From a virus: 38,181 nucleotides of DNA. Location of the stretch: IMG/VR virus record IMGVR_UViG_3300037189_015955, positions 1 through 38,181 of that record; one strand, 5' to 3'. Under the pieces are notes generated by a model, which made no database searches, had not been told where the DNA came from, and saw only the letters and a program-made list of their open reading frames with translations. This document shows positions 6,227 through 33,713 of this stretch, piece after piece. Position 1 is the stretch's first letter; every line of letters starts with the position of its first letter. The position numbers and the translations under genes are program-made.

Positions 6227-6908
6227 TGCCTATTTGCGCGAAGCTGAATACCGGGCGCGAAGGTTCTCCGGTGCGTATACCGGAACTTCGGGGGCGCTGG
6301 CTGCGGACGTTATTAGATTGCTGAACTACTGTGCGGAACTGAAAAAGGGAAACGACATGGAATGGCAGGAAGGTGCGGCGGCGATTCGGTCTGCGGTCGA
6401 GTCTAGGAACGCAGCGCGCGAATCAGACGCGGGCGGATGCTGCGACGGCGGCAGGATGTGCCAGCCGGAAGTTAGTGCGTTGCCGCAGCAACCGGAACCC
6501 ATTGCCGATCGCCTGGAATCGAAATGGGATGCCGATTGGATTTTGCGTGGGGCCGCGGAACTTGAACGGCAGCGCGCCGGGGATGAACCGCGGTTAACCG
6601 GCGACGGCATTTTGAATGCCGCCGATGATCTTCCCGAAGCTGAACGGCTGTTGTTGGCGGCGCTGGATGTGATCCGCGACCGGCGACCGAAATACGGCGG
6701 GCCGAAGGCGCATTTCGGAAGAACCGTGGGCATGATTAACGCTGCGTTCGCGGACGTTTTGAAGCGACCGCTCACCCCGGCGGATTGGGCAATCTTTATC
6801 ATGCTCGACAAACTTGGGCGTTACTGCGGCGCCGGTCAGAAAACGGCAGACGGGCCGATTGATCTGGCTGGGTATGCCGCGTGTCTCGCTGAATGCGAAA
6901 AGCCATAG
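6216..6908 (+). CDS. DUF6378-like protein
   Basis: ATG 6216 lies inside the end of the metallophosphoesterase gene and follows a G-rich ribosome binding site, giving 230 residues. The C-terminal 75 residues (RRPKYGGPKAHFGRT, then LTPADWAIFIMLDKLGR and LAGYAACLAECE) match the pattern of the phage DUF6378 family, whose biochemical role is unknown. The middle is Gly/Cys/Glu-rich and probably a linker, with a short Cys-containing patch near residue 70. Its stop codon TAG overlaps the first copy of the repeated promoter-like box. Confidence 0.65.
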   Translation: MLDDAYLREAEYRARRFSGAYTGTSGALAADVIRLLNYCAELKKGNDMEWQEGAAAIRSAVESRNAARESDAGGCCDGGRMCQPEVSALPQQPEPIADRLESKWDADWILRGAAELERQRAGDEPRLTGDGILNAADDLPEAERLLLAALDVIRDRRPKYGGPKAHFGRTVGMINAAFADVLKRPLTPADWAIFIMLDKLGRYCGAGQKTADGPIDLAGYAACLAECEKP

Positions 6909-6940
6909 ACGGCAGCGGGCGCGTTTTACGGGGGTAGGCT
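6902..6940 (+). promoter_or_regulatory. Promoter-like element, copy 1
   Basis: The box GCCATAGACGGCA (6902-6914) is followed after exactly 20 bases by TAGGCT (6935-6940), a -10-like hexamer. The same 13 bases and spacing occur at 24975 and 33675, each ahead of a structural module. The next gene at 6961 has a GGAGG site at 6950, so transcription starting near 6947 would give a short leader. Candidate late promoter; the recognising factor is unknown. Confidence 0.55.
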
Positions 6941-6960
6941 GCCCGTATGGAGGCGCAGCC

Positions 6961-7188
6961 GTGATCGCGCGTTGGTCGCATTGGCGGAATAGTGCAGATC
7001 GCCGCGATCCAGTGGCAGCGCCTGGGGATGCGCAGTCGATCGCCACTAGCTACATCGCGCCCCGGCAACACTGGGGAAAAATTACCAGCCGCCCGCAAAT
7101 CACGCGGGATCGTCTGGAAGCCGTCGCTTATGAGCTTGGTTGTACGGTGGAAGCCGCGCGCAAGGCAATCGAACAGGGGTTGATTTGA
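6961..7188 (+). CDS. Small hypothetical protein heading the appendage/lysis operon
   Basis: The frame is open from 6814, but GTG 6961 has a GGAGG site 7 bases upstream and gives 75 residues. The C-terminal part (ITRDRLEAVAYELGCTVEAARKAIEQG) looks like a three-helix or winged-helix DNA-binding segment. It is the first gene after promoter-like element 1 and overlaps the next by one base (TGATG). It may be a small regulator, but nothing in the sequence proves a function. Confidence 0.55.
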   Translation: MIARWSHWRNSADRRDPVAAPGDAQSIATSYIAPRQHWGKITSRPQITRDRLEAVAYELGCTVEAARKAIEQGLI

Positions 7189-7691
7189 TGGCGGAATCGA
7201 TTGCCGACATTTTCGCCGGAACTGTGACCACAAAACTGCAATGGTCGCGCGTCGATTCGCAGGAAGTAGGAAGCGTCACCAACAAAAAAACGGCATCATC
7301 AACGTACACGTTTGGCGACGGCGAAACCGCCGGTAGTGCCGATCTGGTATATGCCGACACGCGGACGATTGCGGCGAACGGTGTTGATACGCTCGATTTC
7401 GGCGCGATCACTCAACAGACGTTAGGGGTCGCGGTTCCATTTGCGTTTTCGTCTGTGCGCATCGTCCGCGTTACGAACAATGAAACGGCAGCCGGAAAGC
7501 AAATACTTGTGGGCTGTTCGGAAGATTCGCCGTTTGCCGTCTACGCGCAGGCAGTGGGGCCGGATTCGGAATTCCTGGCCGTGAACCGGCAAGATGCATG
7601 GGAAGTTACGGAAGGCAACCGGATCGTTCGCATTTCAAACCCAAACGCGGGCGCGGCTAGCTATTCGATCGTCATTATCGGGGCTGCCTAA
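7188..7691 (+). CDS. Phage appendage / decoration-like structural protein A
   Basis: This 167-residue protein is rich in beta strands. Its C-terminal half (VRIVRVTNNETAAGKQILVG...NRIVRISNPNAGAASYSIVIIG) has the layout of a beta-sandwich domain seen in many uncharacterised phage structural proteins that decorate heads or tails. It overlaps its neighbours by one base each side. The next gene encodes a probable paralogue of nearly the same length, so this looks like a tandem duplication. Exact placement on the virion cannot be read from sequence. Confidence 0.65.
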   Translation: MAESIADIFAGTVTTKLQWSRVDSQEVGSVTNKKTASSTYTFGDGETAGSADLVYADTRTIAANGVDTLDFGAITQQTLGVAVPFAFSSVRIVRVTNNETAAGKQILVGCSEDSPFAVYAQAVGPDSEFLAVNRQDAWEVTEGNRIVRISNPNAGAASYSIVIIGAA

Positions 7692-8188
7692 TGTCCGCGA
7701 CGTTTTCGCTTTCAGCGCTGCTAAAGGTTGTCCCGAAATGGGTTGATTCGTTCGGCGCAACAGACGTTTACGATTCCGTAACGGCTACGCATTCGCTTGC
7801 GCTGACCGATGGCAGCGGCAGCGGCAACGCTTCTGCCTACTGGCGCGATCAGATCACGATCCCCGCGGGGCAGATGGTCGCCCTCGATCTGCGGTCGCTA
7901 ACGTCGAAAGCGTTCGGCGGAACGGGAACCATCGGGTTATCTACGGTTAAAGCCGTAATGGTTGTAAACAACTCAACAGATTCGCCCGTAGCGTTTGGCG
8001 TTGTCGTGGCTAATCACTGGGGGGAGTATTCCGAAGGGGGCATTTCCGTTGCGCCTGGGGGTGTTCTCTACTCGACAAACGCGGGGGCTGGCTGGCAGAC
8101 CGCGGCAAATTCAAAAGCCATCGGCATTGAGAATTACGGCAGCGGTTCCGCAGCCATAGACGTTTATCTAGTGGGGGTGTTGTTGTGA
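7691..8188 (+). CDS. Phage appendage / decoration-like structural protein B
   Basis: This 165-residue protein shares the layout of the preceding one: a beta-rich N-terminal half, a VKAVMVVNNSTDSPVAFGVV segment aligning with VRIVRVTNNETAAGKQILVG, a Gly-rich middle and a final KAIGIENYGSGSAAIDVYLVG strand pair. The two are probably diverged paralogues. Two related forms could build a hetero-oligomer or give variable surface contacts; that is inference. The downstream gene starts at GTG 8185, overlapping by four bases. Confidence 0.65.
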   Translation: MSATFSLSALLKVVPKWVDSFGATDVYDSVTATHSLALTDGSGSGNASAYWRDQITIPAGQMVALDLRSLTSKAFGGTGTIGLSTVKAVMVVNNSTDSPVAFGVVVANHWGEYSEGGISVAPGGVLYSTNAGAGWQTAANSKAIGIENYGSGSAAIDVYLVGVLL

Positions 8189-8556
8189 TTTCCGAAGCGC
8201 CAGCGAAGGCGGCGAACGATCTAGTTTCGCTTTCAGATAAGGTTTCCGCATACGTTGCCGTGGCAAAAGTAAAAGCCGCGGATGGTTTGACGGTCGCGGA
8301 GTTTTCGGAACTGATCGTTTCCGCGCTGCCGATCCTTATTGCCGCGCTTGATGTTTCCAGCCTTCCCGGCGCAGAGCGAAAGGCTACGGTTGTCGATTTT
8401 GTTGGGACGATGTTCGATCAGTTTTCGGATCGATGCATCCCGATTTATTTCGTTCCGATCTGGTGGATCATCAAGCCATCGTGTCGATCGCTCGCGCTCG
8501 CGTGGGCTGGCGGCGCCGTTGAATCCTTGCTGCCAATCGTTAGGGGTGCGAAATGA
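8185..8556 (+). CDS. Holin-like hydrophobic protein
   Basis: This 123-residue protein starts at GTG 8185, overlapping the previous stop. Residues about 42-56 (ELIVSALPILIAALDV), 86-97 (IPIYFVPIWWII) and 105-119 (LAWAGGAVESLLPIV) are hydrophobic, so it may cross or lie in the membrane. It opens a run of small membrane proteins before a cysteine protease, consistent with a holin or lysis accessory protein. Similar proteins are common in phages but usually unnamed. The holin assignment is inferred from position and hydrophobicity. Confidence 0.5.
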   Translation: MISEAPAKAANDLVSLSDKVSAYVAVAKVKAADGLTVAEFSELIVSALPILIAALDVSSLPGAERKATVVDFVGTMFDQFSDRCIPIYFVPIWWIIKPSCRSLALAWAGGAVESLLPIVRGAK

Positions 8557-8804
8557 TTTTGGCGTTGATCTGCGCCGCCGTTGCGGTGTTTCTGTTTCCG
8601 CTGCCCGCAAACGGCTCGAGCCGTGTTTTCAAGGGTTTTCGTGATCTGTTCAAAACCGGCAGCGCGGATTCTTTCGGCGCTTCAATCGGTCAGCTATCGC
8701 GCGTTCGCGCGCGGCTTGCTGCAACCAATGCGCTGACAGAAAAAGAAAAAACAGCCATCGAAACGCTAACGCTGGCGCTGGTCGCGGGGAGTGAAATCCC
8801 GTGA
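8553..8804 (+). CDS. Small membrane-anchored protein, possible lysis accessory
   Basis: This 83-residue protein has an N-terminal hydrophobic helix (residues 1-18, MILALICAAVAVFLFPLP) followed by a short charged domain ending in a helical LTEKEKTAIETLTLAL segment. The start overlaps the previous stop by four bases (ATGA). A 29-base stretch beginning at 8613 is nearly repeated at 26696 near the capsid gene. Size and context suit a spanin- or holin-like role, but no lipobox is visible and function is unknown. Confidence 0.5.
   Translation: MILALICAAVAVFLFPLPANGSSRVFKGFRDLFKTGSADSFGASIGQLSRVRARLAATNALTEKEKTAIETLTLALVAGSEIP
8613..8641 (+). repeat. 29-bp dispersed repeat, copy A (palindromic head)
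   Basis: It begins with the palindrome GGCTCGAGCC and shares its first 17 bases (GGCTCGAGCCGTGTTTT) and its last six (TTTTCG) with 26696-26724, 26 of 29 identical. This copy lies inside the 8553 coding region. The other copy is upstream of the capsid gene. Confidence 0.7.
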
Positions 8805-9253
8805 TCAGAAAAGCCATTGCCGCCGCGTTACTGGCAGCCGCGTTTCTGTGGTGGCTGGCGCATATCGAGCCTAGCCAGCCAACCCCCGCGCCCGCGCCGC
8901 TTGGGGGATTGGTTTTGCGCGGCCTGTTCGTTTCGCCAACAGCCGCTTCGGATTCGCAGATCATCGCCGCGCTGTGCGATGAAGTGGCAAGCGTGATCGA
9001 ATGGGATGGTATGCAAGATCGCCCGCGGCTAACTACCGGCGCCGCGTTTGACGATCTGCGGACGATTGCCCGCGAATGCCGGATGCGGGGCGAATCAATC
9101 GGCGCCCGTCAGCCGCGCGTGCGCGATGCCATCGCTGCCTACATGACCGAAAAACTAGGAACGTCTGGCGGGCCGGTTGGGCCGGAAGCGCGGGCGCAGT
9201 GGGTTGCGACCCTCCGCGATGTATCGAGGGCAGCCGCCGATGCAACGCGATAG
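8801..9253 (+). CDS. Membrane-anchored hypothetical protein
   Basis: Starting at GTG 8801 (GTGA overlap), it encodes 150 residues. Residues 4-20 (KAIAAALLAAAFLWWLA) form a signal anchor, followed by a Pro-rich stretch and a soluble domain with two Cys and many Arg. This is a type II membrane topology, with the bulk probably outside the cytoplasm. It sits directly before the membrane-anchored cysteine protease and overlaps it by 14 bases, which supports a shared role in lysis or envelope passage. Confidence 0.5.
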   Translation: MIRKAIAAALLAAAFLWWLAHIEPSQPTPAPAPLGGLVLRGLFVSPTAASDSQIIAALCDEVASVIEWDGMQDRPRLTTGAAFDDLRTIARECRMRGESIGARQPRVRDAIAAYMTEKLGTSGGPVGPEARAQWVATLRDVSRAAADATR

Positions 9254-10322
9254 CCGCGCCTTAATCGCCGCCGTTCTTCTGTTCGTTGCCGCGGTTGTCG
9301 CGGTGCGATCCTGGCCGATGCCGCGCCCAACGGCGGCGCAGGCTGGCAACTTCGGCTACACACCCAATCCCGAAGGATCGCGGCAATTCCTCCGCGAACT
9401 GCGGCAGCCGTATTTTTCGGATGCCGGGGCCGAAATTCTCGACAACGCGCAGGGCCGCGATACGTTCTTATGGCGCTACGCTGATCGCGCGCATCGGCAA
9501 GTTTATGGAAAACCGTATGGCCCCTGGAAACAGGGGATCGGGGATTGTGTTTCGTTTGGTTTCGCTTTATCCGCCTATGTCGGGCAAGCGGTCGATTTTT
9601 GCGAGGGGGAATTGCCGGAACCGCCGTTGCTGGTAGCAACGGAACCGCTGTATGGCGGTTCGCGCTGCGAAAGCCGCGGGATCGAGTTTGCAGGGTGGCA
9701 GGATGGCAGCTACGGGGCAGCCGCGGCGCGATGGGTTGCCGGTCTGAAAAACGGAACCGGCGGCATCATCTACCGAAAAAAGTATGGGACGAATGATTTG
9801 ACCGAATACGATCCGCAGCGCGCAAAGGATTGGGGCGCGTATGGCTGCGGCGGGCGCGGCAATACGGAACTAGATCATGTTGCCAACGAACACACCGTTC
9901 GCGCCGTCGCGTTGGTAACGAACTGGCAGGAAGCCGCCGCGTCGATCGAGGCGGGCGCGCCCGTGGCTGTCTGTTGCGGGGTTGGGTTTTCCTCCCGCCG
10001 TAATAAGGATGGATTTTCGGAACGCATCTATCCCGGCTGGGCGCATTGCCAAGCCATGATTGCGGTTCGCTACGCGCACAACGAAGGCGGGCGCGATGGG
10101 ATTCTGGTTATGAATTCCTGGGGTGTGTGGAATGGCCCGCCGGAAAACAAATGGCCGAAGGATCAACCGGACGGCAGCTATTGGGTTTCGCGCGAAACCG
10201 TTAACGAAATGCTGAAAGGTGGCGATTCCTTTTCCCTTGCTGGCGTGAATGGGTTTCGCTGGCGCGAATTGAATCACGGCGATTTTCTGGCAGTTCCTCC
10301 CGATACGGACGGCAGCAAATGA
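9240..10322 (+). CDS. Membrane-anchored papain-like cysteine protease
   Basis: ATG 9240 gives 360 residues and follows a GAGGG site. Residues 7-23 (ALIAAVLLFVAAVVAV) form a signal anchor. The C1-type triad is visible: Cys103 in GIGDCVSFG, His268 in WAHCQAM and Asn291 in MNSWG. The oxyanion Gln expected just before the Cys may be Gln98 in WKQGIGDC. Papain-like folds are unusual as phage lysins. Its place among membrane proteins suggests envelope or surface-layer degradation during lysis. A role in virion maturation is less likely, as the prohead protease is encoded at 26776. Confidence 0.8.
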   Translation: MQRDSRALIAAVLLFVAAVVAVRSWPMPRPTAAQAGNFGYTPNPEGSRQFLRELRQPYFSDAGAEILDNAQGRDTFLWRYADRAHRQVYGKPYGPWKQGIGDCVSFGFALSAYVGQAVDFCEGELPEPPLLVATEPLYGGSRCESRGIEFAGWQDGSYGAAAARWVAGLKNGTGGIIYRKKYGTNDLTEYDPQRAKDWGAYGCGGRGNTELDHVANEHTVRAVALVTNWQEAAASIEAGAPVAVCCGVGFSSRRNKDGFSERIYPGWAHCQAMIAVRYAHNEGGRDGILVMNSWGVWNGPPENKWPKDQPDGSYWVSRETVNEMLKGGDSFSLAGVNGFRWRELNHGDFLAVPPDTDGSK

Positions 10323-10576
10323 CAACGATTACGAACGGACGGTTGGCGCTGGTGTGCGCGGTTTGCTTCGCGGCTGGTTGCTGGTTTGGCTATGGCAACG
10401 GAAAGGCTGCCGCCGCGCAGGATCGCCCCGTGTTGCGCGCAATTGCCCGCGTTGCGAAACTTGGATTGTGGATGATGTTCCTCGCTGAATCCTCGCCGCC
10501 CGCTGAACCGGCGCACGTTGCGCATATCTACCGGCATCATGGCGGGGATCAGATCACGCACCGGGAAGGCTGGTAA
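10319..10576 (+). CDS. Small membrane protein
   Basis: This 85-residue protein has a hydrophobic N-terminal helix (residues 8-26, LALVCAVCFAAGCWFGYG) with two Cys. An amphipathic stretch (RPVLRAIARVAKLGLWMMFLAE) could lie on the membrane surface, and a polar tail follows. ATG overlaps the protease stop by four bases. In the lysis-like cassette it could be a holin, antiholin or protease partner. The sequence does not decide between these. Confidence 0.5.
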   Translation: MTTITNGRLALVCAVCFAAGCWFGYGNGKAAAAQDRPVLRAIARVAKLGLWMMFLAESSPPAEPAHVAHIYRHHGGDQITHREGW

Positions 10577-10579
10577 ACG

Positions 10580-10927: not shown

Positions 10928-10929
10928 CC

Positions 10930-11436: not shown

Positions 11437-11442
11437 TGCCCC

Positions 11443-12421: not shown

Positions 12422-12450
12422 GCGCTCCCCCCAATGGCGGGGCGCTCCCC
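12422..12450. repeat. Direct repeat near attP
   Basis: The 9-mer GCGCTCCCC occurs at 12422-12430 and again at 12442-12450, exactly 20 bases apart, just left of the tRNA-derived core. It could be an integrase arm-type binding site. Two copies alone are weak evidence. Confidence 0.35.
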
Positions 12451-12453
12451 TCG

Positions 12454-12506
12454 ATAGCATCGGTCTACGGAACCGAAGGTTGCTGGTTCGAGCCCAGCGG
12501 GGTGTA
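12454..12506 (+). other. attP core: 3' part of a tRNA-Arg(ACG) gene
   Basis: The stretch folds as the 3' half of a tRNA. The anticodon stem TCGGT/ACCGA (12460-12464, 12472-12476) flanks loop CTACGGA, giving anticodon ACG (Arg). Variable bases AGGTT follow, then T stem GCTGG/CCAGC with loop TTCGAGC (12482-12498), 3' acceptor strand GGGGTGT (12499-12505) and discriminator A. The 5' half is absent, so it is not a functional tRNA gene. Lying between the integrase start and the repressor, it is the phage attachment site. Integration would restore the 3' end of the host tRNA-Arg gene. Confidence 0.85.
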
Positions 12507-12571: not shown

Positions 12572-12823
12572 ATGGCTGGGACACGACACGCGGGAGGGCG
12601 CCCGCGGATTCTCAAATACACCCCGATGGGCAAACGGATCGTGGCCGAAGCTAACCGGCTAGGGCTGGCGATCGATGAAGTGGCGGAAGCCGCCGGGGTT
12701 TCGCGTCCAACGCTGTACCGCATTCTGTCGGGCCGCATCGGCTCCCCCCGGCTGCAAACCGTTCTGGCAATCGCAGCCGCGCTGCGAACCCCCGCCAGCC
12801 GTCTAATCGGCAAGGGCGCCTAG
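12572..12823 (+). CDS. XRE-family HTH repressor
   Basis: This 83-residue protein has a Cro/CI-type helix-turn-helix at about residues 35-57 (IDEVAEAAGVSRPTLYRILSG) in a compact helical domain. There is no dimerisation or LexA-like cleavage domain. ATG 12572 has GGAGG 8 bases upstream; an ATG at 12557 would add five residues but lacks a site. It lies between attP and a perfect inverted repeat overlapping a promoter for the early genes. It is the best candidate for the lysogeny repressor, though a Cro-like role cannot be excluded. Confidence 0.75.
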   Translation: MAGTRHAGGRPRILKYTPMGKRIVAEANRLGLAIDEVAEAAGVSRPTLYRILSGRIGSPRLQTVLAIAAALRTPASRLIGKGA

Positions 12824-12837
12824 GTTCCTTGAATCGC

Positions 12838-13007: not shown

Positions 13008-13328
13008 ATGCGCGTGATCTTGACCGATCAGCAATTGCGCCGCTGGCGCCGCGAGGGAAGAACACCGGAAGCGATCATGGCGGCAACGGGGTGGAGCGAA
13101 CCGCACTACCGGCGCCGAATCGCGCAGGCATACGGCAGGCCCGCGGCGGGCGATCCCTCGCCGGAAGCGATAGCGGCAGCCTGCCTGGAAATTCAACAGG
13201 AATGGAGTCACGCGGAACGCCAGCGGCGATTGATCCAATCGGGCAGCGCGTTCCGCTGGAAGGGAAAAGGGCGCGGCGGCTGCCCAAAAAAATCGGAAGG
13301 CAGTCGCGGGGATGGCTTCGCTGCCTAA
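13008..13328 (+). CDS. HTH-like early protein
   Basis: ATG 13008 gives 106 basic residues. The N-terminal part (LTDQQLRRWRREGRTPEAIM, then AATGWSEPHYRRRIAQAYG) reads as a helix-turn-helix. The segment PSPEAIAAACLEIQQEWSHAE resembles the C-terminal helix of small phage regulators. It is probably the first early protein and may control early transcription. A frame open from ATG 12971, which has a strong GGAGGGG site, overlaps it but translates into low-complexity Gly/Arg/Pro sequence. The true first start of this operon is therefore uncertain. Confidence 0.6.
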   Translation: MRVILTDQQLRRWRREGRTPEAIMAATGWSEPHYRRRIAQAYGRPAAGDPSPEAIAAACLEIQQEWSHAERQRRLIQSGSAFRWKGKGRGGCPKKSEGSRGDGFAA

Positions 13329-20785: not shown

Positions 20786-21238
20786 TCAGCGCTGATCGAG
20801 GTAATCGACCGCATCCAGCGGATCGTGTTGCGCTTCCGCCCATCCTTCCAATCGATCATCGATGATCCGATGGATGATGAACAGACACGCGCGCCGCAAC
20901 GTGGCTGGGTTCTCTCGCTTCACGCGCACCCCGTTCACAATGTCCGCGCCCTGGAACGATTCGACCGGCCCGTAGATTGTGACAACGTCCACATCGTCGG
21001 GATAGCCGGGATCGCCGTTCGGCATCGTATGGCAACCGGGAACGTGAATCGCCACATCGACCGCGAAGCCGATGCCCCCTGGCGCGTCCGCTCGATAGAG
21101 CAAATAGCCATCGCAATCGATCGACAGAACGCCGCCGTATTCGGCCAGTTGGCAGACCGGCGGCTGCGCGAATCCGCAGGCTGCGATCATCCCGCGGAAC
21201 ATATCGAGCGCCGCGGCCCAATCGTAATCGCTGTTCAT
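20786..21238 (-). CDS. Hypothetical protein, last gene of minus-strand operon
   Basis: This 150-residue acidic protein has mixed alpha/beta character (DWAAALDMFRGMIAACG, VLSIDCDGYLLYRADAPGG, GFAVDVAIHV, VDVVTIYGPVESFQ) and a helical end. The start has a GGGAAG site 4-5 bases upstream and overlaps the RHH gene stop (ATGA). It ends 28 bases from the operon terminator. No known domain. Cotranscription with an RHH regulator suggests an accessory cassette function. Confidence 0.55.
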   Translation of the reverse strand: MNSDYDWAAALDMFRGMIAACGFAQPPVCQLAEYGGVLSIDCDGYLLYRADAPGGIGFAVDVAIHVPGCHTMPNGDPGYPDDVDVVTIYGPVESFQGADIVNGVRVKRENPATLRRACLFIIHRIIDDRLEGWAEAQHDPLDAVDYLDQR

Positions 21239-21441
21239 TTGCTTCCCTTTCGCTGTTGAGTTGCAGCGCGGGGGATATCCCGGCTGTTTTCCATGTAGTA
21301 ATCGAGCGCCTTCCGCACCAGTTCCGCCTTGCCGGAAATCCCCATCGAGGCGGCAAGCGCCGCCAGCCGCGCATCCTGTTCCGCGGTCAATCGAACCGAA
21401 AGAATCGAGCCGCGCGCCGCGGGTTTGCTAGAAAATGCCAT
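21235..21441 (-). CDS. Ribbon-helix-helix (CopG/Arc-type) DNA-binding protein
   Basis: ATG 21441 gives 68 residues with a GGGGATTTGGAAA ribosome site region. The core SILSVRLTAEQDARLAALAA (about 14-33) and GISGKAELVRKALDYYM (35-51) form beta-strand, helix, helix as in RHH proteins, which bind palindromes as dimers. The frame upstream to 21477 runs through a 14-bp palindrome and is less likely translated. It may autoregulate this operon. No toxin partner with a known fold is seen, so a toxin-antitoxin pair is unproven. Confidence 0.7.
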   Translation of the reverse strand: MAFSSKPAARGSILSVRLTAEQDARLAALAASMGISGKAELVRKALDYYMENSRDIPRAATQQRKGSK

Positions 21442-21872: not shown

Positions 21873-22151
21873 TCAACGTGCGTTCATGTTTCCCAAGCAA
21901 ACAGCGAATTTGCCGTTAAGGCTGGCAGTCAGGCAGACGGTACGAAACCCGTCGCATTCGTAGGCGCGGCGAACGTCGCGGTTTTCCTCGCCGGTAACGA
22001 ACCAGTTGACCGCGCCAGCGCCGGTATGGCAGATCAGATCGACCGCGGCATCAAAATGAGCGGAAGCGGTTTCGTAATCGTTGTAGAAAAACGATTCGTA
22101 GCGGCTGGCAAACTGGCAAGCGAAATCGTCGGTGGCGTTGGTGGCGTTCAT
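21873..22151 (-). CDS. Hypothetical protein, first gene of minus-strand operon
   Basis: ATG 22151 has GGAGG 9 bases upstream and gives 92 residues. The frame continues to 22352 but crosses the promoter, so that extension is rejected. The protein has mixed sequence (FASRYESFFYNDYETASAHF, DAAVDLICHTGAGAVNWFV) and four Cys. It resembles no family I can name. The leader between the promoter at 22204-22231 and the start is about 47 bases. Confidence 0.55.
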   Translation of the reverse strand: MNATNATDDFACQFASRYESFFYNDYETASAHFDAAVDLICHTGAGAVNWFVTGEENRDVRRAYECDGFRTVCLTASLNGKFAVCLGNMNAR

Positions 22152-22203
22152 CGTTTCTTCCTCCGGTTCGTGTTCCGCGGTTTCCTTGCCGCGTCTGCCA
22201 TTC

Positions 22204-22231
22204 ATTATCGGCATACGGAAACGTATGTCAA
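22204..22231 (-). promoter_or_regulatory. Sigma70-type promoter with internal operator
   Basis: On the minus strand, -35 TTGACA (complement of 22226-22231) and -10 GATAAT (complement of 22204-22209) are 16 bases apart, almost perfect consensus. Within the spacer, CATACG and CGTATG (22212-22217, 22222-22227) form an inverted repeat around GAAA that overlaps the -35. This suits repression by a dimeric protein such as the RHH product. It reads into the four-gene operon. Confidence 0.8.
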
Positions 22232-24562: not shown

Positions 24563-24981
24563 TGCACACCATCACGGTATCGCGAGTGGATCGCCTGGAA
24601 TGTCGCGACGTTTGCGCGATCATCGACCGGCTAACGCATGAAGAAAGCGAATGGCAGCAAGAATTGCGGCGGGCAGTCGATAGCGGAAAACCTTCCGTTA
24701 CCCCCGTTGCGTTGTGGCATGAATCCGGTTCGTTGCTGGGCTGGTGTTGTTCTCACAAATGGCAAGGGATGCAGACAATCGAAACATTTGTCGATGAATC
24801 GGAACGCGGCAACGGCATAGCAACGGCATTGGCCGCTTGTCTGGCTGCCGCCGGGGTTCTCGACAGGGCGCGGCCCGTCGCGGTGTTTTCCGATGACGTT
24901 GAACGCATGGCAAACCGAATGGGGTTTGCGGAAGTGTTGCGTTACGAATGGAACGGTTCAGCCTGGGCATGGATGCCATAG
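24562..24981 (+). CDS. GNAT-like acetyltransferase-fold protein
   Basis: This 139-residue protein shows the GNAT core: a strand-rich middle (PVALWHESGSLLGWCCS), IETFVDESERGNGIATALAA with the RGNGIA acetyl-CoA loop (near residues 82-87), and a closing DDVERMANRMGF motif typical of N-acetyltransferases. It overlaps the terminase stop (TAATG) and its own stop lies inside promoter-like element 2. Phage GNAT proteins next to terminase are known, but their substrates are mostly unknown. Confidence 0.7.
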   Translation: MHTITVSRVDRLECRDVCAIIDRLTHEESEWQQELRRAVDSGKPSVTPVALWHESGSLLGWCCSHKWQGMQTIETFVDESERGNGIATALAACLAAAGVLDRARPVAVFSDDVERMANRMGFAEVLRYEWNGSAWAWMP

Positions 24982-25013
24982 ACGGCAGCGAAACGCGCGC
25001 GCCCTGTTAGCGT
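24975..25013 (+). promoter_or_regulatory. Promoter-like element, copy 2
   Basis: GCCATAGACGGCA (24975-24987) is followed after 20 bases by TAGCGT (25008-25013), the same box and spacing as at 6902 and 33675. The head operon starts at ATG 25021. If TAGCGT is a -10, transcription would begin almost at the start codon, giving a leaderless or near-leaderless mRNA. The GGTGG at 25014 would then fall upstream of the RNA. Confidence 0.55.
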
Positions 25014-25020: not shown

Positions 25021-25221
25021 ATGGAACCAGATGCCCTGCGCGATCAGATCGAAGCTACGGCGGCTGCGCCGAAGCGCGTGCGCACCGATGCGGGCGAAGT
25101 TGAAACCCGCGACCTTTCGCAACTGATCGAGGCGGATAAGTATCTGGCCGCAGCCCGCGCGGCGAAAAGCCGTTACGGCGGTTTGCGGATCACGAAACTG
25201 ATTCCGCCTGGAACGATCTAG
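25021..25221 (+). CDS. gpW-like head-tail connector / portal-adjacent protein
   Basis: This 66-residue protein directly precedes the portal gene. Its pattern (VRTDAGEVETRDLSQLIEAD, then KYLAAARAAKS and GGLRITKLIPPGT) is that of small gpW-type proteins in lambda-like head modules, which fill the portal end and create the tail-attachment surface. The portal GTG overlaps its stop by one base (TAGTG). The gene follows promoter-like element 2. Confidence 0.7.
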   Translation: MEPDALRDQIEATAAAPKRVRTDAGEVETRDLSQLIEADKYLAAARAAKSRYGGLRITKLIPPGTI

Positions 25222-26687
25222 TGGGATTCATCGAGCGTTTTTTCGGCGGGAAGCGTGAACCGCGCAGCCGTGCCGCTGCGCCGGTGAGCATTCGCGCCCG
25301 CTACGATGCCGCGGAATCAGGCGACGATCGCCGCCATTGGGCAGCCGCGGATGCGTTTTCGCAGGATGCCGCCCTGGCGCCTACGATCCGCCGCACGATC
25401 CGCAACCGCGCACGATACGAACGGCAAAACAATTCGTACCTTTCTGGCATTGCTGAAACGGTCGCAAATGATCTGATCGGCACGGGGCCGCGGTTGCAGC
25501 TATCGACCGGCAGCGCAGACGCTGACCGCGAAATCGAACGCGGTTTCTTCGATTGGTCATGGCGCGTTCATCTGGCAAGCAAACTGCGCACTATGCGGCA
25601 GTCGAAAATGATCGACGGCGAAGCATTCGCCGTTATGTTTTCGAACCCCGCTCTAGACGGTGTGCAACTCGATCTAAGGCTCGTGGAGTGCGATCAAGTT
25701 TCAACCCCTACCGGGGTTTATAACGCCGATCAAACCCCCGAAGGGTCGATCGTAGACGGCATGGAATTTGATGCCGTGGGCAATGTTGTCGCGTACAAAA
25801 TCCTAAAAAATCATCCCGGCAGTAACTTCCGTTTCAACTTCGCCTACGATCGCGTATCGTCCGCGAACGTGTTTCATTGGTTCACGGCGTTTCGCCCCGC
25901 GCAGCATCGCGGAGTAAGCGAGGTTGCGCCTTGCCTACGGCTGTTCGCTGATCTGCGGCGCTATACGGCAGCCGTAATTGCCGCAGCTGAAACCGCTGCG
26001 GATTTTGCGGCATTTTTGCATAGCAATTCGCCAGCCGCGGAAGTTGATTCGATCGATGCATTCCAGAGTATGGATATCGAAAAGCGGTCGCTTGTGACGC
26101 TGCCCGAAGGCTGGGATATTTCGCAACTCCGCGCGGAACAGCCAACCGCGAACTTCGGGGATTTCCGCCGCAACATCATTTCGGAAATCGGAAGATGCTT
26201 GCAAATCCCATACAACATCGCGGCGCTCGATAGCAGCAACCACAATTACGCATCGGGACGCATGGATGCGCAACTCTATCACGCAAACCAGCGCGTTACC
26301 CGCGACGAAATCGAACGATCGATTTTGGATCGTCTGTTCGCCGCTTGGTGCGATGAAGCGGTTTTGATCGGCGCGATTCCCGGCGGCATTGGCCCGATGA
26401 ATGAATGGGATTGGGCCTGGACTTGGGACGGGCGCGAACACGTTGATCCTGCGAAGGAAGCAAGCGCCGCAGAAATTCGGTTGCGCACTTACACGACAAC
26501 GCTTGCCAGCGAATACGCGCGGCAGGGCAAATCGTGGGAAGCGGAATTGCGGCAGCGCGCCGCGGAACTGGCGTTGATCAAGGAACTGGGGTTGCCGCCC
26601 GCCGTCGATCCGATGGCACCGCAGCAACCGCAGGCGCGGCAACAGCCATCCGATGCGGTCTATCACGACACGGGCGAATCGGATTAG
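25221..26687 (+). CDS. Portal protein (lambda gpB family)
   Basis: This 488-residue protein, starting at GTG 25221, has the features of lambda-type portals: N-terminal segment MGFIERFFGG, an RYDAAESGDDRRHW motif, IRRTIRNRARYERQNNSYLS, and the central NVFHWFTAFRPAQHRGVSEV stretch followed by a long helix. The C-terminal region is Ala/Gln-rich. Portals form the dodecameric ring for DNA entry. It is between the gpW-like protein and the protease-capsid gene, the order of lambda-like head modules. Confidence 0.85.
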   Translation: MGFIERFFGGKREPRSRAAAPVSIRARYDAAESGDDRRHWAAADAFSQDAALAPTIRRTIRNRARYERQNNSYLSGIAETVANDLIGTGPRLQLSTGSADADREIERGFFDWSWRVHLASKLRTMRQSKMIDGEAFAVMFSNPALDGVQLDLRLVECDQVSTPTGVYNADQTPEGSIVDGMEFDAVGNVVAYKILKNHPGSNFRFNFAYDRVSSANVFHWFTAFRPAQHRGVSEVAPCLRLFADLRRYTAAVIAAAETAADFAAFLHSNSPAAEVDSIDAFQSMDIEKRSLVTLPEGWDISQLRAEQPTANFGDFRRNIISEIGRCLQIPYNIAALDSSNHNYASGRMDAQLYHANQRVTRDEIERSILDRLFAAWCDEAVLIGAIPGGIGPMNEWDWAWTWDGREHVDPAKEASAAEIRLRTYTTTLASEYARQGKSWEAELRQRAAELALIKELGLPPAVDPMAPQQPQARQQPSDAVYHDTGESD

Positions 26688-26724: not shown

Positions 26725-26725
26725 A

Positions 26726-26779
26726 ATGTTCAGCATCGACACAACCGAAGATGAAATCGAACTGGTGGAATTCCTGTGA
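26726..26779 (+). CDS. Small coupled ORF upstream of capsid gene (17 aa)
   Basis: ATG 26726 has an AGGTG site about 8 bases upstream. The 17-residue acidic peptide MFSIDTTEDEIELVEFL ends at a TGA that overlaps the GTG start of the protease-capsid gene (GTGA). That gene lacks a strong site of its own, so translation of this ORF may deliver ribosomes to it. The peptide may have no function beyond coupling. Confidence 0.45.
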   Translation: MFSIDTTEDEIELVEFL

Positions 26780-28608
26780 ACACGCTCGCGCTCGCTTCTG
26801 ATGTGCAGTTCCTCGCCGCCGCTGACGGGCAGTCCGAAGCGGGGCCGATGCGCTTTACGATCGAGGCATACACCGGCGCCGCCATCCGGCAAAGTTGGTC
26901 GCGCGAACCGATCGTTATTGATCTGCAAGGAATGGAGTTGCGCCAGAAACTTCCGATCGTGATGGGACACGATTATTCGATCGGCTCGATCGTCGGGCAG
27001 ACCACTAGCGTGCGCGTGGAAGGCGGAAAGCTGTTGGTTGATGCCGAAGTTTTTGCCAGCGGCGACGTTGCCAAGCGCGTTAGGGAACTGGCTGCCAGCG
27101 GCTACCCGTGGCAGGCGAGCGTGGGCGCTGATGTGCGCCGCCACCAGAAGATCGACGCGGAACAGACCGCGACCGTCAACGGGCAGATGTTTCAAGGCCC
27201 GATCCGAATCGTAAAGGCTTCCAGTTTGCGGGAAGTTAGTTTTGTCGTTTTGGGTGCGGATGCAAACACGCACGTTTCAATCGCCGCCGAAGAATCGGCG
27301 GAACCGGAGGAAATCACTATGGCGAACAACGCCAGCGAATCCCCCGCGGTCGAGCCGGAATCGGCCCCGCCCGCGGAAATCACGGCGGCTGTCGCCGTGG
27401 ATGCTCCCCAGACCGACAACACCCCCAGCGACGATACCGCATCCGTTATCGCCGCGCTGACGCAGAAAGTGGAAACGATGGAAAAGCTGATCGCGACCCG
27501 CGACAACCGCGGCCCCGCCATTCACGTTGCGGAGAAGGCCAGCGGCGCCAACGTGATCGAGGCGGCGCTGTGTCTCCAGGCTGGTTTGCCGCAACCGGAA
27601 AAGTTCTTCGATGATCGCACGATCGAGGCGGGAGAGAAGGCCAAGCGCAACGTGTCGCTTACGGATGCGTTTGTCGAGGCTGCCGTCGCCAACGGCTACG
27701 ATGGGCATCGCAAGGTTTCGACGGGAACGCTTCCCGCGATCATCAAGGCTGCGTTTTCGACGTATGACATTTCCAATCTGTTGTCGAACGTCGCGAACAA
27801 GTTCCTTCTGGCTGGGTTCAACGCTGTGGAAAGCTCCTGGAGCGAGATTTCGAACATCCGCAGCGTGAACAACTTCAAGGGGGTGAACCTGTTCCGCCTT
27901 AACGGTTCGTTCAAATTCTCCCGCGTGGGCAACGGCGGCGAACTTCGCAGCGCCGCTGGCACCGATGAGAAGCGCACCGTGAACGCTGACGAATACGGCG
28001 TTTCTACGGTGATTACGCGGGTTGATCTGATCAATGATGATTTGTCGGCGTTGTCGCAGGTGACGCAGCGAATCGGTCGCGGCGCCATGCTGTCGGTTAA
28101 TGAAGTTGTTTGGGGCGAATTCCAGAGCGGAAACGCTTCGTTCTACGCGAAGGCAACCGCCGGTTCCGGCAATGCCTTTTCGATGGCTTCGCTCAAGGCC
28201 GCAACTACCGGCTATCGGAAGTTGAACGATCGCGACGGTAATCCGCTTGGGATCACGCCCCGCGTTCTTCTGGTGCCGCCCGATCTGGAACTGGCTGCCC
28301 ATGAAATCATGTCTTCTTCGCTGATGATTTCCGGCAGCGGTGCGGCGCAGGGCAACGCGAATATCCTGGCTGGTCGATACCGCGTTGTTACTTCGGCCTA
28401 TCTGACCAGCGCTACTACTTGGTGGCTGTGTTCGGATGCCGCCGATCTGGCGCCGATGGAGGTTGTCTTTCTTAACGGCCAGATGGGGCCGACGATCGAG
28501 CAAGTTGTACCGGACTACAACACATTGGGCATCGGCCTCCGCGGCACCCTCGATTTCGGGTGTGCGAAGGGCGAAGACCTCGCCGCCTACCGCATGGCGG
28601 TTTCGTGA
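26776..28608 (+). CDS. Prohead protease - major capsid protein fusion
   Basis: This single 610-residue frame joins two usually separate proteins. Residues 1-165 look like a phage prohead serine protease, with His65 (MGHDYSIGS) and Ser115 (WQASVGADV) as likely catalytic residues. A linker of Glu, Ala and Pro (about 170-245) leads to a capsid domain (about 255-610: SLTDAFVEAAVANGY, GLRGTLDFGCAKG end). Such fusions occur in some phages and may self-cleave during maturation. An internal GGAGG with ATG at 27319 could produce the capsid part alone, about 429 residues. Start GTG 26776 is coupled to the small upstream ORF. Confidence 0.85.
   Translation: MNTLALASDVQFLAAADGQSEAGPMRFTIEAYTGAAIRQSWSREPIVIDLQGMELRQKLPIVMGHDYSIGSIVGQTTSVRVEGGKLLVDAEVFASGDVAKRVRELAASGYPWQASVGADVRRHQKIDAEQTATVNGQMFQGPIRIVKASSLREVSFVVLGADANTHVSIAAEESAEPEEITMANNASESPAVEPESAPPAEITAAVAVDAPQTDNTPSDDTASVIAALTQKVETMEKLIATRDNRGPAIHVAEKASGANVIEAALCLQAGLPQPEKFFDDRTIEAGEKAKRNVSLTDAFVEAAVANGYDGHRKVSTGTLPAIIKAAFSTYDISNLLSNVANKFLLAGFNAVESSWSEISNIRSVNNFKGVNLFRLNGSFKFSRVGNGGELRSAAGTDEKRTVNADEYGVSTVITRVDLINDDLSALSQVTQRIGRGAMLSVNEVVWGEFQSGNASFYAKATAGSGNAFSMASLKAATTGYRKLNDRDGNPLGITPRVLLVPPDLELAAHEIMSSSLMISGSGAAQGNANILAGRYRVVTSAYLTSATTWWLCSDAADLAPMEVVFLNGQMGPTIEQVVPDYNTLGIGLRGTLDFGCAKGEDLAAYRMAVS
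27306..27321 (+). promoter_or_regulatory. Internal ribosome binding site and in-frame ATG
   Basis: GGAGG (27306-27310) lies 8 bases before ATG 27319, in frame at codon 182 of the fusion, exactly between the protease and capsid parts. It would initiate a separate 429-residue capsid protein. In fused protease-capsid genes an internal start lets the ratio of capsid to protease be set by translation. Confidence 0.5.
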
Positions 28609-28631
28609 GTTAGTGCGGAAACGCATCAATC

Positions 28632-28662: not shown

Positions 28663-28717
28663 TTACGCAACATTCCTAGGGGCCGGTTTACCGGCTAGAA
28701 AACGGGGTTAAAGAATC

Positions 28718-29047: not shown

Positions 29048-29065
29048 TCGCACGATCGTTCGATT

Positions 29066-29117
29066 CACACCGCAAGCCCAGCGGGCGCGCGCAACATAGC
29101 GCGCCCGCTGCGGTGTG
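29066..29117 (+). terminator. Two-part GC hairpin after the decoration gene
   Basis: The inner stem CAGCGGGCGCGC (29079-29090) pairs with GCGCGCCCGCTG (29099-29110) over an eight-base loop. The outer stem CACACCG (29066-29072) pairs with CGGTGTG (29111-29117), leaving a six-base bulge. No T-run follows. It probably terminates or stabilises the head mRNA before the adaptor gene. Confidence 0.6.
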
Positions 29118-29144
29118 CGGGGCTACGGATGTAGGGGCTGCGCA

Positions 29145-29504: not shown

Positions 29505-29506
29505 CC

Positions 29507-31861
29507 ATGCCGTTTTATTCGCTTCCATCTGGTTCCGGTTCCGGCGGCGCGCCTACGTTGTCCGGTTCCGGCGCGCCTAGCAACGCAATTGGGAACAACG
29601 GTCAGCTATATATCGACACTGTTTCCAAAACGCTTTACGGGCCGAAAACTGCTGGTGAATGGGGAACAGGCATCCCCCTCACAGGGGCAACGTGGGCCGA
29701 AGTTACTGAAAAGCCATCGAGTTTCCCGCCTTCGGCGCATACGCACGACATTTCAGACGTTACCGCGCTGCAAACCGCGCTAGATGGCAAGGCAGCTACA
29801 ACGCACACCCATGCCATAGCAGACGTTACCAGCCTGCAAACGGCGCTGAACGGTAAAGCGGCAACGTCGCACAGCCATGCGATATCGGACGTTAGCGGAC
29901 TGCAATCAACCCTGGATGGCAAGCAAGCTGCCGGAAGTTATTCGGCGGCAACGCATACCCATGCGATTGCAGACGTTACGGGTTTGCAAACGGCGCTGGA
30001 TGGCAAAGCTGGCACATCGCACACCCACACCATTTCGAACGTAACTGGATTGCAGACCGCCCTAGACGGCAAGCAAGCCGCGGGCAGTTATGCGGCGGCT
30101 GTTCATACCCATTCCATCGCAGACGTTAGCGGACTGCAAACGTCGCTGAACGGAAAAGCGGCGGCTTCCCATACGCATTCCATTTCGGACGTTACGGGCC
30201 TGCAAACTGCGATGGACGGGAAACAGGTCGCCGGGAGTTACGCGGCGGCATCCCATACGCATTCGATTACGGAGGTTAGCGGGCTGCAAACTGCGCTGAA
30301 TGGAAAGCAAGCCAGCGGGGACTATGCCGCGGCAACGCATACGCACATCATCGCGGACGTTACGGGGCTGCAAACCGCATTAGACGGGAAACAGCCTGCC
30401 GGAAGCTATGCCAGCGCTTCCCACACCCATTCCATCGCAGACGTTACGGGGCTGCAAACGGCGCTGGATGGCAAGGCTGGCACATCCCATACGCACACCA
30501 TTTCGAACGTAACCGGATTGCAGACCGCCCTAGACGGCAAGCAAGCCGCGGGCAGTTATGCAACGCTGGTAGACGGGAAAATCCCGCTGGCGCAAATACC
30601 ATCGGGAATTAGTAGCGGATCATCGATTGCGACAACGGACGATCTTTCAGAAGGATCGTCGCATCTTTATTTTACATCGTCGCGCGCCCTGGCTGCGATC
30701 CCTACCGCAACCGATTCCGTTGCCGGTCTGGTGAAAGTTGGCAGCGGGCTACAGATTTCCGGCGGGATTCTGTCGGCATCAAATTCTGGAGGCGGCGGCG
30801 GGTTGTCATGGTCAAGCGTACCGAATTCTGCCACGGCAAGCGGCACGGCTGGGCAACTCGCATATGACGATGGCGGATACCTATACGTTTGTACCGCGGC
30901 AAACACTTGGAAAAGGGTTGCGCTATCGAGTTGGGCCACGCCAGTCATCTCAATTTCAGCCCAGCCGTCAAATCAAACGGCGTCTTCAGGATCGGCTACG
31001 TTCTCTTTAACGGCATCTGTAACGTTGGGAGGCAGCCTCACATATCAGTGGCAAAAAAGCACAGACGGCGGCAACACCTGGGCGAACGTCAGCGGCGCAA
31101 CGTCTTCTTCGCTGGCGCTTACTTCGCAGACCACAGCCAACAACAACAATCAATACCGCGTTATGGTGACAAGCACCGGCGCAACCAGCGTGACCAGCAA
31201 CGCGGCCACGCTGACGGTAGCCGCCTCATTTGCGCAGACCGCAGTTATTCTAACGTCAGGGCAGACATACCAAGTGCCATCGGGTGCGCAGACGATGAAA
31301 ATTTGGGCGATTGGGGCTGGAGGCGCGAGCGGAGCGCCTGGTGGAGCGGCTGGCGGATGTGTGTATAGAACTTTTAATGTGACCGGCGGTTGGTCGGTTA
31401 CTTGCGCAGTTGGCGCGCGCCCCGCTGGATCGACAGGCGTCGGCGGAGATACCACAGTTACATTTCTGGGGTTTACGTTACGCGCCTACGGCGGCAGCTA
31501 CAACACGGGGGGCGGATACTCAGGGGGAGATGGAGGCGCGACGGGCGGGGCGTCGGTTGGTGACGTTGGGTCAGAAAACGTGACCGGAGGTGCAGTAGGT
31601 GGTAATGCCGCATCGATCGCGTCGTGCGGCAGACGGCCAGCAACTGACGTTTCCGGCCTTCTCGCAGCCGTCGCTCTGGCTAACGGAAAAACCACCGAAG
31701 ATTGCGGCGACATTGGCGCATTTGGTTCTGGCGCCGCTTATCACAAATTTTCAGCGTCAAAACAGGCTGGATACGGCGGCGGCTCTGGATATTATCAAGC
31801 CCAATCCGGCGGGCAGCGATCCTGGGCGGGAGATGGGGCTGTAGTGTTGCTGTTTTCGTGA
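29507..31861 (+). CDS. Tail fibre-like protein with HTH-type repeats, Ig-like domain and Gly-rich C-terminus
   Basis: This 784-residue protein starts with a Ser/Gly-rich head. It then has 11 repeats of about 22-28 residues based on HTHxIxxVxGLQTALDGK (about 78-350), whose HxH motifs are typical of trimeric, metal-bound phage fibres. An Ig-like domain (about 480-575, SAQPSNQTASSGSATFSL) and a Gly-rich terminal domain follow. It probably binds receptors. Its place between head connector and tail genes is unusual. A near-exact duplication occurs inside the repeats. Confidence 0.85.
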   Translation: MPFYSLPSGSGSGGAPTLSGSGAPSNAIGNNGQLYIDTVSKTLYGPKTAGEWGTGIPLTGATWAEVTEKPSSFPPSAHTHDISDVTALQTALDGKAATTHTHAIADVTSLQTALNGKAATSHSHAISDVSGLQSTLDGKQAAGSYSAATHTHAIADVTGLQTALDGKAGTSHTHTISNVTGLQTALDGKQAAGSYAAAVHTHSIADVSGLQTSLNGKAAASHTHSISDVTGLQTAMDGKQVAGSYAAASHTHSITEVSGLQTALNGKQASGDYAAATHTHIIADVTGLQTALDGKQPAGSYASASHTHSIADVTGLQTALDGKAGTSHTHTISNVTGLQTALDGKQAAGSYATLVDGKIPLAQIPSGISSGSSIATTDDLSEGSSHLYFTSSRALAAIPTATDSVAGLVKVGSGLQISGGILSASNSGGGGGLSWSSVPNSATASGTAGQLAYDDGGYLYVCTAANTWKRVALSSWATPVISISAQPSNQTASSGSATFSLTASVTLGGSLTYQWQKSTDGGNTWANVSGATSSSLALTSQTTANNNNQYRVMVTSTGATSVTSNAATLTVAASFAQTAVILTSGQTYQVPSGAQTMKIWAIGAGGASGAPGGAAGGCVYRTFNVTGGWSVTCAVGARPAGSTGVGGDTTVTFLGFTLRAYGGSYNTGGGYSGGDGGATGGASVGDVGSENVTGGAVGGNAASIASCGRRPATDVSGLLAAVALANGKTTEDCGDIGAFGSGAAYHKFSASKQAGYGGGSGYYQAQSGGQRSWAGDGAVVLLFS
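29738..30561 (+). repeat. Tandem coding repeats of the fibre gene
   Basis: Eleven units of about 66 or 84 bases encode HTHxI...LDGK repeats. The unit pair at about 29988-30093 is repeated at 30456-30561, exactly 468 bases later, with about five differences in 106 bases. That points to a recent internal duplication. These are coding repeats, not CRISPR. Confidence 0.9.
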
Positions 31862-31869
31862 GGTGAGAT

Positions 31870-32373
31870 ATGGGAAATGTAATGCGAATGCCAAGCGGCG
31901 TCGGCGTGATTTTAACGCCGCGCAGCGGAAGCCATTCGCTTGCCGCTGCCGCTTTGCAGGCTCATTGGCCTGACGCTTTTGCCGAATGGGTAGCATCCGG
32001 CTGCGAGGGGCATCCGGCTGCGTTTCTGCCCTGCGATGAAAATTTTTGCGGGCAGGAAGACCTTGCAATTGTCGTGCGCAACCCAGTGGAGCGGTTCCGA
32101 TCCATGTGCGCACATCGGCCAGAGCGCACCGTCGAAGAGCATCTGGCAAGCCCTGTTTACGGGCCGTTGCCGCAAGGAAAGTTTTCCCGCACATTCCTAT
32201 TCGAGTCAGGTCTGGACGCTGTAGCCGAATATCTCGCGCTGCCATTGCCTATGATTCATCTTGACGCTACTGACGAGGCAAAGAAACCAACGCTTACGGT
32301 CGCACAACAATCGCGGGTGCGCGATATGTATGCGATGGATATAGCGCTGTGGGAATCCATCGGCGGCGCATAA
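31870..32373 (+). CDS. Sulfotransferase-like protein
   Basis: This 167-residue protein has TPRSGSHSL (about 16-24) resembling the 5'-phosphosulfate loop of sulfotransferases, and VVRNPVERFRSM (about 67-78) resembling the 3'-phosphate-binding motif. It ends in DMYAMDIALWES, like sulfotransferase C-termini. Sulfotransferases move sulfate from PAPS to sugars, lipids or proteins. It is short, so it may be a minimal form. It lies directly after the fibre gene and could modify the host surface or the fibre. GATC occurs once in 504 bases, against eight in the next 459, suggesting recent acquisition. Confidence 0.65.
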   Translation: MGNVMRMPSGVGVILTPRSGSHSLAAAALQAHWPDAFAEWVASGCEGHPAAFLPCDENFCGQEDLAIVVRNPVERFRSMCAHRPERTVEEHLASPVYGPLPQGKFSRTFLFESGLDAVAEYLALPLPMIHLDATDEAKKPTLTVAQQSRVRDMYAMDIALWESIGGA

Positions 32374-32399
32374 TCAATCAGCACATTCAATGGTGCGCA

Positions 32400-32858
32400 G
32401 TGCCTAGTTTTATCCGCGGACTATCTGACGCTGTAGCCAATAGCCTTTCGGCTATTTCCTGGCCTGTTGCTGGCACAACCGTAGAACGTCGAAACTGGGC
32501 TGCCGTCGATCTTCTGGAACTGGAATCGCCGGTAATCCTTGTGGCTCCCGGTAGCGTTGAAGTGTCGCGCGTTGGCAGGCTGGTTTCGCAGATCGACTAC
32601 ACGGTTAACGTGTTCGTTGGCATGCGCTGCAACGATGATGCAGCGATCGATTCAACGATCGATCTTGCCGATTCTGTTGCGCTTCACATTCGCGCCCATG
32701 ATTGGCCGGAATACGTTTCGTGGCCCGAAGGCGCAACGTCGCCTAATGCCGTGTCGATCGATATCGATCCCGAAAGCGGACTGAATGAACGGAACGTATG
32801 GCGGGCAATGATTTCCGCAACGTATCGGATTATCGAGGCGGATCGGCTACCGGAGTAG
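32400..32858 (+). CDS. Tail terminator / tail completion-like protein
   Basis: GTG 32400 gives 152 residues, starting MPSFIRGLSDAVANSLSA like small tail-completion proteins. The core (ILVAPGSVEVSRVGRLVSQI, DYTVNVFVGMRC) is beta-rich, and the C-terminus (NVWRAMISATYRIIE) ends in strands. Such proteins cap the tail tube and bind the neck. The frame opens at 32349, but that stretch is not conserved-looking, so the shorter start is used. No good ribosome site is visible. Confidence 0.6.
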   Translation: MPSFIRGLSDAVANSLSAISWPVAGTTVERRNWAAVDLLELESPVILVAPGSVEVSRVGRLVSQIDYTVNVFVGMRCNDDAAIDSTIDLADSVALHIRAHDWPEYVSWPEGATSPNAVSIDIDPESGLNERNVWRAMISATYRIIEADRLPE

Positions 32859-32865
32859 CGCAGCC

Positions 32866-33672
32866 ATGATTCCGGTTGTTGTCGATAAATCATTTTGGCC
32901 GCGATCCGCTGGCGGAACCGGCGGGCGCATCCAGACAAAACTAGAATTACGCATTAAAAAGGGGTTTTTCGATCAAGCCCGCGTAAAGCGGATGCTCGAT
33001 GCGGCAAACCAGCGCGGGCTAGAGAAGGCGGCGGATCGTATCTGGGAAGCCGCGAAGCGCGGCATTGGCAGGGCGCCGAAGCGAACGAAGAAATGGGAAC
33101 GCGCTGCCGGGGTTAACGATCTGGTCGAAATCCGCGGCGGTCTATACCGCGACGTTACGCAAGCAAATAGCGGGCAACCCCGCCCGCCTGGGCAGCCGGT
33201 GAAATCGTGGGGGCCGAAAAGGCTACTCTACAAATCATTGCGGCGCTATTACCAGCATTCGAGCCGATCCGCCATTATCGGCCCCGCGTTTATCCCGTGG
33301 CTTGTGCAGCTACACGAATTCGGCGGCAACCTAACGATGCGCGCCTATGGTCTGGCAACGAAACAGGCGCGGATAGCCAAGCGGCAGCGGGATCAAGCCG
33401 GTCGATCCGGCGGGGGCCGGGATACCCGCGGGCGATTCACAAAAGGCAAGCGGCGCGACGGGATCGCGACGTTCGCGAACGGGATGCCGAAAACCGGGGT
33501 TCTGTTGTGGTCGAGCCGTGCCATCCGCACGGGGCGGCTATGGACTGATTTACATATGCGGCGGCGGGCGCATTACCCGGCGCGGCCCTACATGGGATCG
33601 CAGGCAGTTCAGACGGCAAAAGCCAAGATTGCCGCGCAATTCCGCGACACGATCCGCGGCCCCGGAATCTGA
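32866..33672 (+). CDS. HK97 gp10-like tail/neck protein
   Basis: This 268-residue basic protein contains LVQLHEFGG (about 145-153) and, near its end, AHYPARPYMG, two motifs found in HK97 gp10-type proteins that act in head-tail joining or tail completion. The Lys/Arg-rich middle (TKQARIAKRQRDQAGRSGGG and on) is probably an insertion or disordered loop. It lies seven bases after the tail-terminator gene and is followed by promoter-like element 3. Confidence 0.7.
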   Translation: MIPVVVDKSFWPRSAGGTGGRIQTKLELRIKKGFFDQARVKRMLDAANQRGLEKAADRIWEAAKRGIGRAPKRTKKWERAAGVNDLVEIRGGLYRDVTQANSGQPRPPGQPVKSWGPKRLLYKSLRRYYQHSSRSAIIGPAFIPWLVQLHEFGGNLTMRAYGLATKQARIAKRQRDQAGRSGGGRDTRGRFTKGKRRDGIATFANGMPKTGVLLWSSRAIRTGRLWTDLHMRRRAHYPARPYMGSQAVQTAKAKIAAQFRDTIRGPGI

Positions 33673-33674
33673 AT

Positions 33675-33713
33675 GCCATAGACGGCATTGCGCCGCAACG
33701 GCGGGGGTAATCT
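33675..33713 (+). promoter_or_regulatory. Promoter-like element, copy 3
   Basis: GCCATAGACGGCA (33675-33687) is followed after 20 bases by TAATCT (33708-33713), the best -10 match of the three copies. Unlike copies 1 and 2 the box does not overlap a stop codon; the preceding gene ends three bases before. The tail-tube gene starts at GTG 33745 with GGGAG at about 33731. Confidence 0.6.

Follow-up and report, generated by a model that had tools for sequence, protein, structure and literature searches.

The three identical 13-bp boxes in this phage genome are, with a probability of about 0.72, the upstream elements of late promoters for the head, tail and a third operon, each pairing the predicted site of a phage-specific activator with a sigma70-type −10 hexamer. 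The window, meaning the whole stretch of DNA analysed here, is IMG/VR virus record IMGVR_UViG_3300037189_015955 (38,181 nucleotides). It contains exactly three copies of GCCATAGACGGCA, all on the plus strand, at 6902, 24975 and 33675, and a TAnnnT hexamer begins 33 bp past the box start in every case. These exact matches confirm what the initial annotation had reported for the boxes and their spacing.

6902..6914, plus strand: box copy 1 (exact match; relatives have a box at the same boundary)
6935-6940, plus strand: −10-like hexamer TAGGCT (from the sequence; geometry common to copies 2 and 3)
24975..24987, plus strand: box copy 2 (exact match)
25008-25013, plus strand: −10-like hexamer TAGCGT, 7 nt before the ATG at 25021
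33675..33687, plus strand: box copy 3 (exact match)
33708-33713, plus strand: −10-like hexamer TAATCT (from the sequence)

Transcription would start near 6947, 25020 and 33720. As claimed earlier, copies 1 and 2 overlap stop codons, the box-internal TAG being the stop of the preceding gene (6906-6908 and 24979-24981, respectively), while copy 3 starts 3 nt past a TGA (33670-33672). A promoter scan reported no sigma70-like −35/−10 pair at the boxes. The motif TGCC-N6-GGCA can be read in copies 2 and 3, and some other box types contain imperfect inverted repeats.

The repeat by itself is weak evidence, since 56 of 300 first-order Markov sequences hold some 13-mer with at least three copies and seven 13-mers reach that number in the window, the box being one of them. 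Only the box, among these seven, has copies with TAnnnT at one offset, the density of TAnnnT being 0.0044 per base. The rare feature is thus the common hexamer geometry and not the three-copy 13-mer. The only one-mismatch matches to the box are two copies of GCCCTAGACGGCA, at 30059 and 30527, which we rejected as boxes because they are in-frame coding repeats within 29507-31861 and have no TAnnnT at +33. They are explained by the internal repeats of this fibre-like gene, in which, for example, the 13-mer TGCAAACGGCGCT occurs three times. The record ends in an exact 87-bp repeat (1-87 = 38095-38181), and the tape-measure ORF (1170 aa) crosses the record junction, from 35498 to 916. IMG/VR lists the record as linear, but the terminal repeat and this ORF indicate that it is probably a circular map, complete at 38,094 bp, and the count of three boxes therefore applies to the whole genome.

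The genes behind the boxes are as follows.

6961..7188, plus strand: first gene of the third operon, 75 aa, GTG start (gene call; GGAGG at 6949-6953)
25021..25221, plus strand: 66-aa first gene of the head operon (orthologues in relatives; start-codon geometry)
25221-26687, plus strand: portal (PF05136, E=1e-57)
26776-28608, plus strand: capsid-type protein (PF25209, E=1.6e-33)
33745..34071, plus strand: tail-tube-like gene, GTG start (PHROGs major tail protein, E=2.5e-4, with a longer ORF; GGGAG at 33732-33736)

The capsid protein has matches to Phage_capsid_4 and to Mu-like gpT, and box 3 is followed by the major tail protein, then paralogous tail genes and then the tape-measure gene. Box 1 heads a run of conserved genes from 6961-7188 to about 11331, for which family searches gave no useful matches; the product of 6961-7188 matched nothing in Pfam or PHROGs. 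Protein families thus bear out two of the modules proposed in the initial annotation, the head at box 2 and the tail tube at box 3, whereas appendage/lysis for box 1 has no family matches behind it. In the window, the tail operon and the third operon have GGGAG or GGAGG and a short leader, unlike the head operon. Elsewhere the phage encodes an integrase-type protein, an XRE regulator, a replication-initiation-like protein, a methylase and a gpA-type terminase.

As the boxes overlap or directly follow stop codons, they could instead be terminators or RNA elements closing the preceding operon. A hairpin is possible at copy 3 (z −1.33), but copies 1 and 2 fold worse than their shuffles (z +1.07 and +0.76), none of the three boxes was called as a terminator, and such a role leaves the fixed spacing between box and TAnnnT unexplained. 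We rejected this reading on the folding z-scores and consider it extremely unlikely.

To compare related phages, we collected IMG/VR matches to portal and tail-tube queries, at about 60-76% amino-acid identity, and read 16 relative contigs over their full length; for the tail-tube gene 33745-34071 there are at least 80 relatives. The literal GCCATAGACGGCA box is not found at the equivalent sites of the relatives read. Instead, one genome-specific box is common to the head and tail operons in 15 of 15 phages with both sites (window included), and the offset from box to TAnnnT is equal at the two sites within ±1, with a 1-bp shift in three of the 15 pairs. The box similarity score averages 15.8 within a genome; comparisons across box types give 6.1 and 1440 other TAnnnT sites give 3.9, and permuting tail regions among genomes gave a p of about 5e-5. 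There are five box types in all, and the following boxes were read in relatives.

G005: GCCAYAGGYGGYACGAA
G006, G010 and G017: ACGGCAYACCCGGTCT
G007 and G009: CGACACCCCCTACGGTC
G014: CCAYACCCCCTGCGG
L006: AACCCCYACCAACCCCATACGTTTT, a direct repeat with a 10-bp period

The box CGGCAYACCCGGTCTAG lies ahead of the tail tube in relatives among L042-L101 (for example L061-L069). A third box copy was scored in 12 phages, mostly directly ahead of the 6961-7188 orthologue, and a CATAG-type box lies upstream of this orthologue in all 13 phages where it was called. Two relatives (G002 and G003) have a fourth copy, ahead of a GNAT-like gene. The TAnnnT rule misses the third-site hexamer in some phages, such as G014.

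Mapping box type onto a portal tree requires at least five changes, with type B alone needing two origins, so the boxes do change. Since box type mostly tracks the phylogeny, local composition could account for part of the similarity within genomes; the sequence around the boxes is not conserved. The earlier proposal that absence of the box from related phages would refute its function is invalid, because relatives swap the box and keep its position and geometry. This conserved geometry gives good support to the view that the sites are late-module promoters whose upstream element is not of the sigma70 type; their late timing is something we infer. A search of IMG/VR for the exact box followed by N20 and TANNNT returned eight matches, none of them in recognised relatives, and these were discarded as related promoters since most resemble coding sequence of unrelated contigs.

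These comparisons suggest how the promoters may work. The box, at about −45 to −30 and in the place of a −35 element, would be bound in trans by a DNA-binding factor, which the phage most likely makes before the late phase. Once bound, this factor would recruit the RNA polymerase of the host, carrying the housekeeping sigma, to the TAnnnT −10. Box and reader would have diverged jointly along the phage lineages, with promoter position, −10 and spacing kept.

The head operon offers a closer look at the −10 element. Among 77 viral loci, namely those with a readable small gene ahead of the portal, in 70 a TAnnnT lies 11-15 nt ahead of the start codon chosen, with a spacer of 6-8 nt between hexamer and ATG, compared with the same layout in 8 of 1925 control windows (0.4%). 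The exceptions appear mostly to be cases where the wrong start codon was picked, while L287 has no hexamer. With transcription starting about 7 nt after the hexamer, a 6-8-nt spacer would place the mRNA start at or just before the ATG, and the head operon is probably transcribed as a leaderless or nearly leaderless mRNA. TANNNT is the −10 element of leaderless promoters in Deinococcus (PMC12340547), and TANNNT leaderless promoters are reported in Mycobacterium as well (PMC3898074). The phage promoters resemble those of Deinococcus-Thermus and Mycobacterium in having the hexamer directly ahead of the ORF and a predicted leaderless mRNA (PMC12340547). They differ in adding an upstream box, and the form is present in all relatives at the head operon only.

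A two-part motif with nearly fixed spacing is also what a dedicated alternative sigma factor (of the phage, or a host ECF-type) would read, the box being a large −35 and TASCGT the −10. Consistent with this, 40 of 48 distinct head promoters have TACCGT or TAGCGT, a narrower choice than is usual for a sigma70 −10. However, tail hexamers are diverse (TAATCT, TAGTTT, TAGGCT), box and hexamer stand about 19-20 bp apart, more than is usual for sigma, and none of 17 phages has a sigma region-4 (PF08281) match over the cut-off, sub-threshold matches being weak and control genomes being detected. We regard this alternative as fairly unlikely. The initial annotation had left the choice between an activator site and an unusual sigma recognition element; our results favour the activator and make the sigma less likely on the grounds of the gap and the region-4 search.

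It seems probable that the host belongs to the Planctomycetota. The nearest relatives of the phage group are in Planctomycetota genomes: the terminase has relatives at 416 loci in bacterial genomes, and the 80 of these that were listed (54-59% identity) are mostly from Planctomycetota, especially Phycisphaerae, with a few in MAGs under other names. A stretch resembling a tRNA 3′ half (Rfam tRNA) adjoins the integrase gene at 12444-12506, of which 51 bp match a Planctomycetota genome at 98% in a search within Planctomycetota. This is a candidate attP, and the match is as expected for an attP in a tRNA gene; ARAGORN found no complete tRNA. The tail-tube query found no relatives in GTDB genomes, a phage collection or 392 Planctomycetota genomes, and the promoter arrangement was not found ahead of portal genes in the prophages of bacterial genomes, as far as these could be read. 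Because the tRNA search covered Planctomycetota only and these prophages do not have the arrangement, we hold the host assignment no firmer than probable.

Three proteins of the window were considered as potential readers of the box.

13008..13328, plus strand: candidate regulator, a small HTH protein whose tail reads DPSPEAI (HTH_23 match weak, E=0.033)
12626-12823: XRE protein, candidate reader (HTH_31, E=9.9e-11)
21235-21441, minus strand: ribbon-helix-helix protein, candidate reader

The first is favoured solely because it is widespread, and we treat it as a candidate only. Each of the eight contigs that reach 38 kb has ORFs related to it, their orthology being unsure; the family has a DP(S/T)PEEI tail, in some relatives the gene sits directly ahead of the terminase, and in the window it lies behind the XRE gene. 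A structure model of its product has a confident helical N-terminus (pLDDT about 90), a PDB fold search with this model gave no useful match, and a wider search with the product returned mainly short matches to the tail motif. Known activator families were also sought. The Mor family (PF08765) is absent from all 17 phages at E<=1. No GcrA match (PF07750) is over the curated cut-off, the best reaching 20.9 bits against the 26.9 needed and none being in the window; sub-threshold matches to GcrA are seen for the candidate HTH protein in three relatives (G001, G004 and G006), along with a weak one to the DNA-binding domain of GcrA. In an indirect look at 80 early proteins, from the window, G003 and G005, the Ogr/Delta zinc-finger activator is absent from the best 25 of 38 Pfam families.

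The XRE and ribbon-helix-helix proteins, together with the imperfect inverted repeats of some boxes, raise the possibility that the box is an operator through which a repressor silences the late operons in the lysogen. Yet the box lies upstream of the −10 with no −35 to block, so that the promoter would be weak without the box anyway, and no box occurs near the XRE, integrase or early genes. An operator role therefore seems distinctly improbable. The box could also be read by a host regulator, with phages matching the version of their own hosts. For phages of Alphaproteobacteria, use of the host CtrA is reported (PMC9437464), and the phages analysed yielded no phage regulator that is both universal and clearly orthologous; if a host protein were the reader, box change without reader change would give the same pattern. 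Against this, one box type recurs over many contigs while related phages differ sharply, and host sites are usually more stable. A host reader is, in our judgement, unlikely.

The favoured reading, activation by a phage-made factor, has parallels in phage Mu, where one activator, C, serves the lys, I, P and mom promoters (PMC4461284), and where Pm, which uses sigma70 polymerase, has in place of a −35 a site for a Mor dimer with inverted repeats of 5 bp (PMC4390567). As with the Mu C promoters, separate late modules including head and tail would have one common activator and non-consensus elements (PMC4461284), and the box would stand in the −35 place with the −10 kept, as at Mu Mor/C promoters. 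There are clear differences: no PF08765 match was found in the 17 phages, the box itself differs, and Mu transposes, whereas the window phage has an integrase-type gene. The Mor site at Pm is centred at −43.5, compared with about −39 for the box here if transcription starts 7 nt past the hexamer, and only some box types have an inverted repeat. Since no Mor-family gene was found, we would say that the system works like Mu C/Mor and is not a member of that family. With the sigma70-binding GcrA of Caulobacter there is no functional link, and the matches of the candidate HTH protein are all below the cut-off and none is in the window.

The regulatory sites are real, and most likely they are late promoters whose activator box is specific to the lineage. 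They are of a known kind, but we have not found this family described, in which the boxes diverge while their places stay fixed; the open-licence literature yielded no account of such promoters in planctomycete phages. It is conceivable, if doubtful, that they form an undescribed late-activation system specific to planctomycete phages, where a small HTH protein of the phage (perhaps the one with the DP(S/T)PEEI tail, distantly GcrA-like) activates and its specificity changes together with the box, giving each lineage a private switch on a frozen architecture. Our analysis maps predicted late promoters at the sequence level for a phage group that is large and apparently uncharacterised. At their constant places the diverged boxes form a natural series, in which co-evolution of activator and site can be tested directly and the activator sought, and head-operon mRNAs of these phages are predicted to be leaderless.

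Two other observations concern the early regions and the promoter scan. Two proteins match CsrA (PF02599, best E=4.5e-17) among the 80 early ones of the window, G003 and G005, the early regions of the latter two being L105-L107 and L125-L127, respectively. The best sigma70-type promoter match in the scan, TTGACA-16-GATAAT (11/12), lies at 22231-22204, directly upstream of 21873-22205 (minus strand) and a four-gene minus-strand cluster, which includes a ribbon-helix-helix protein.
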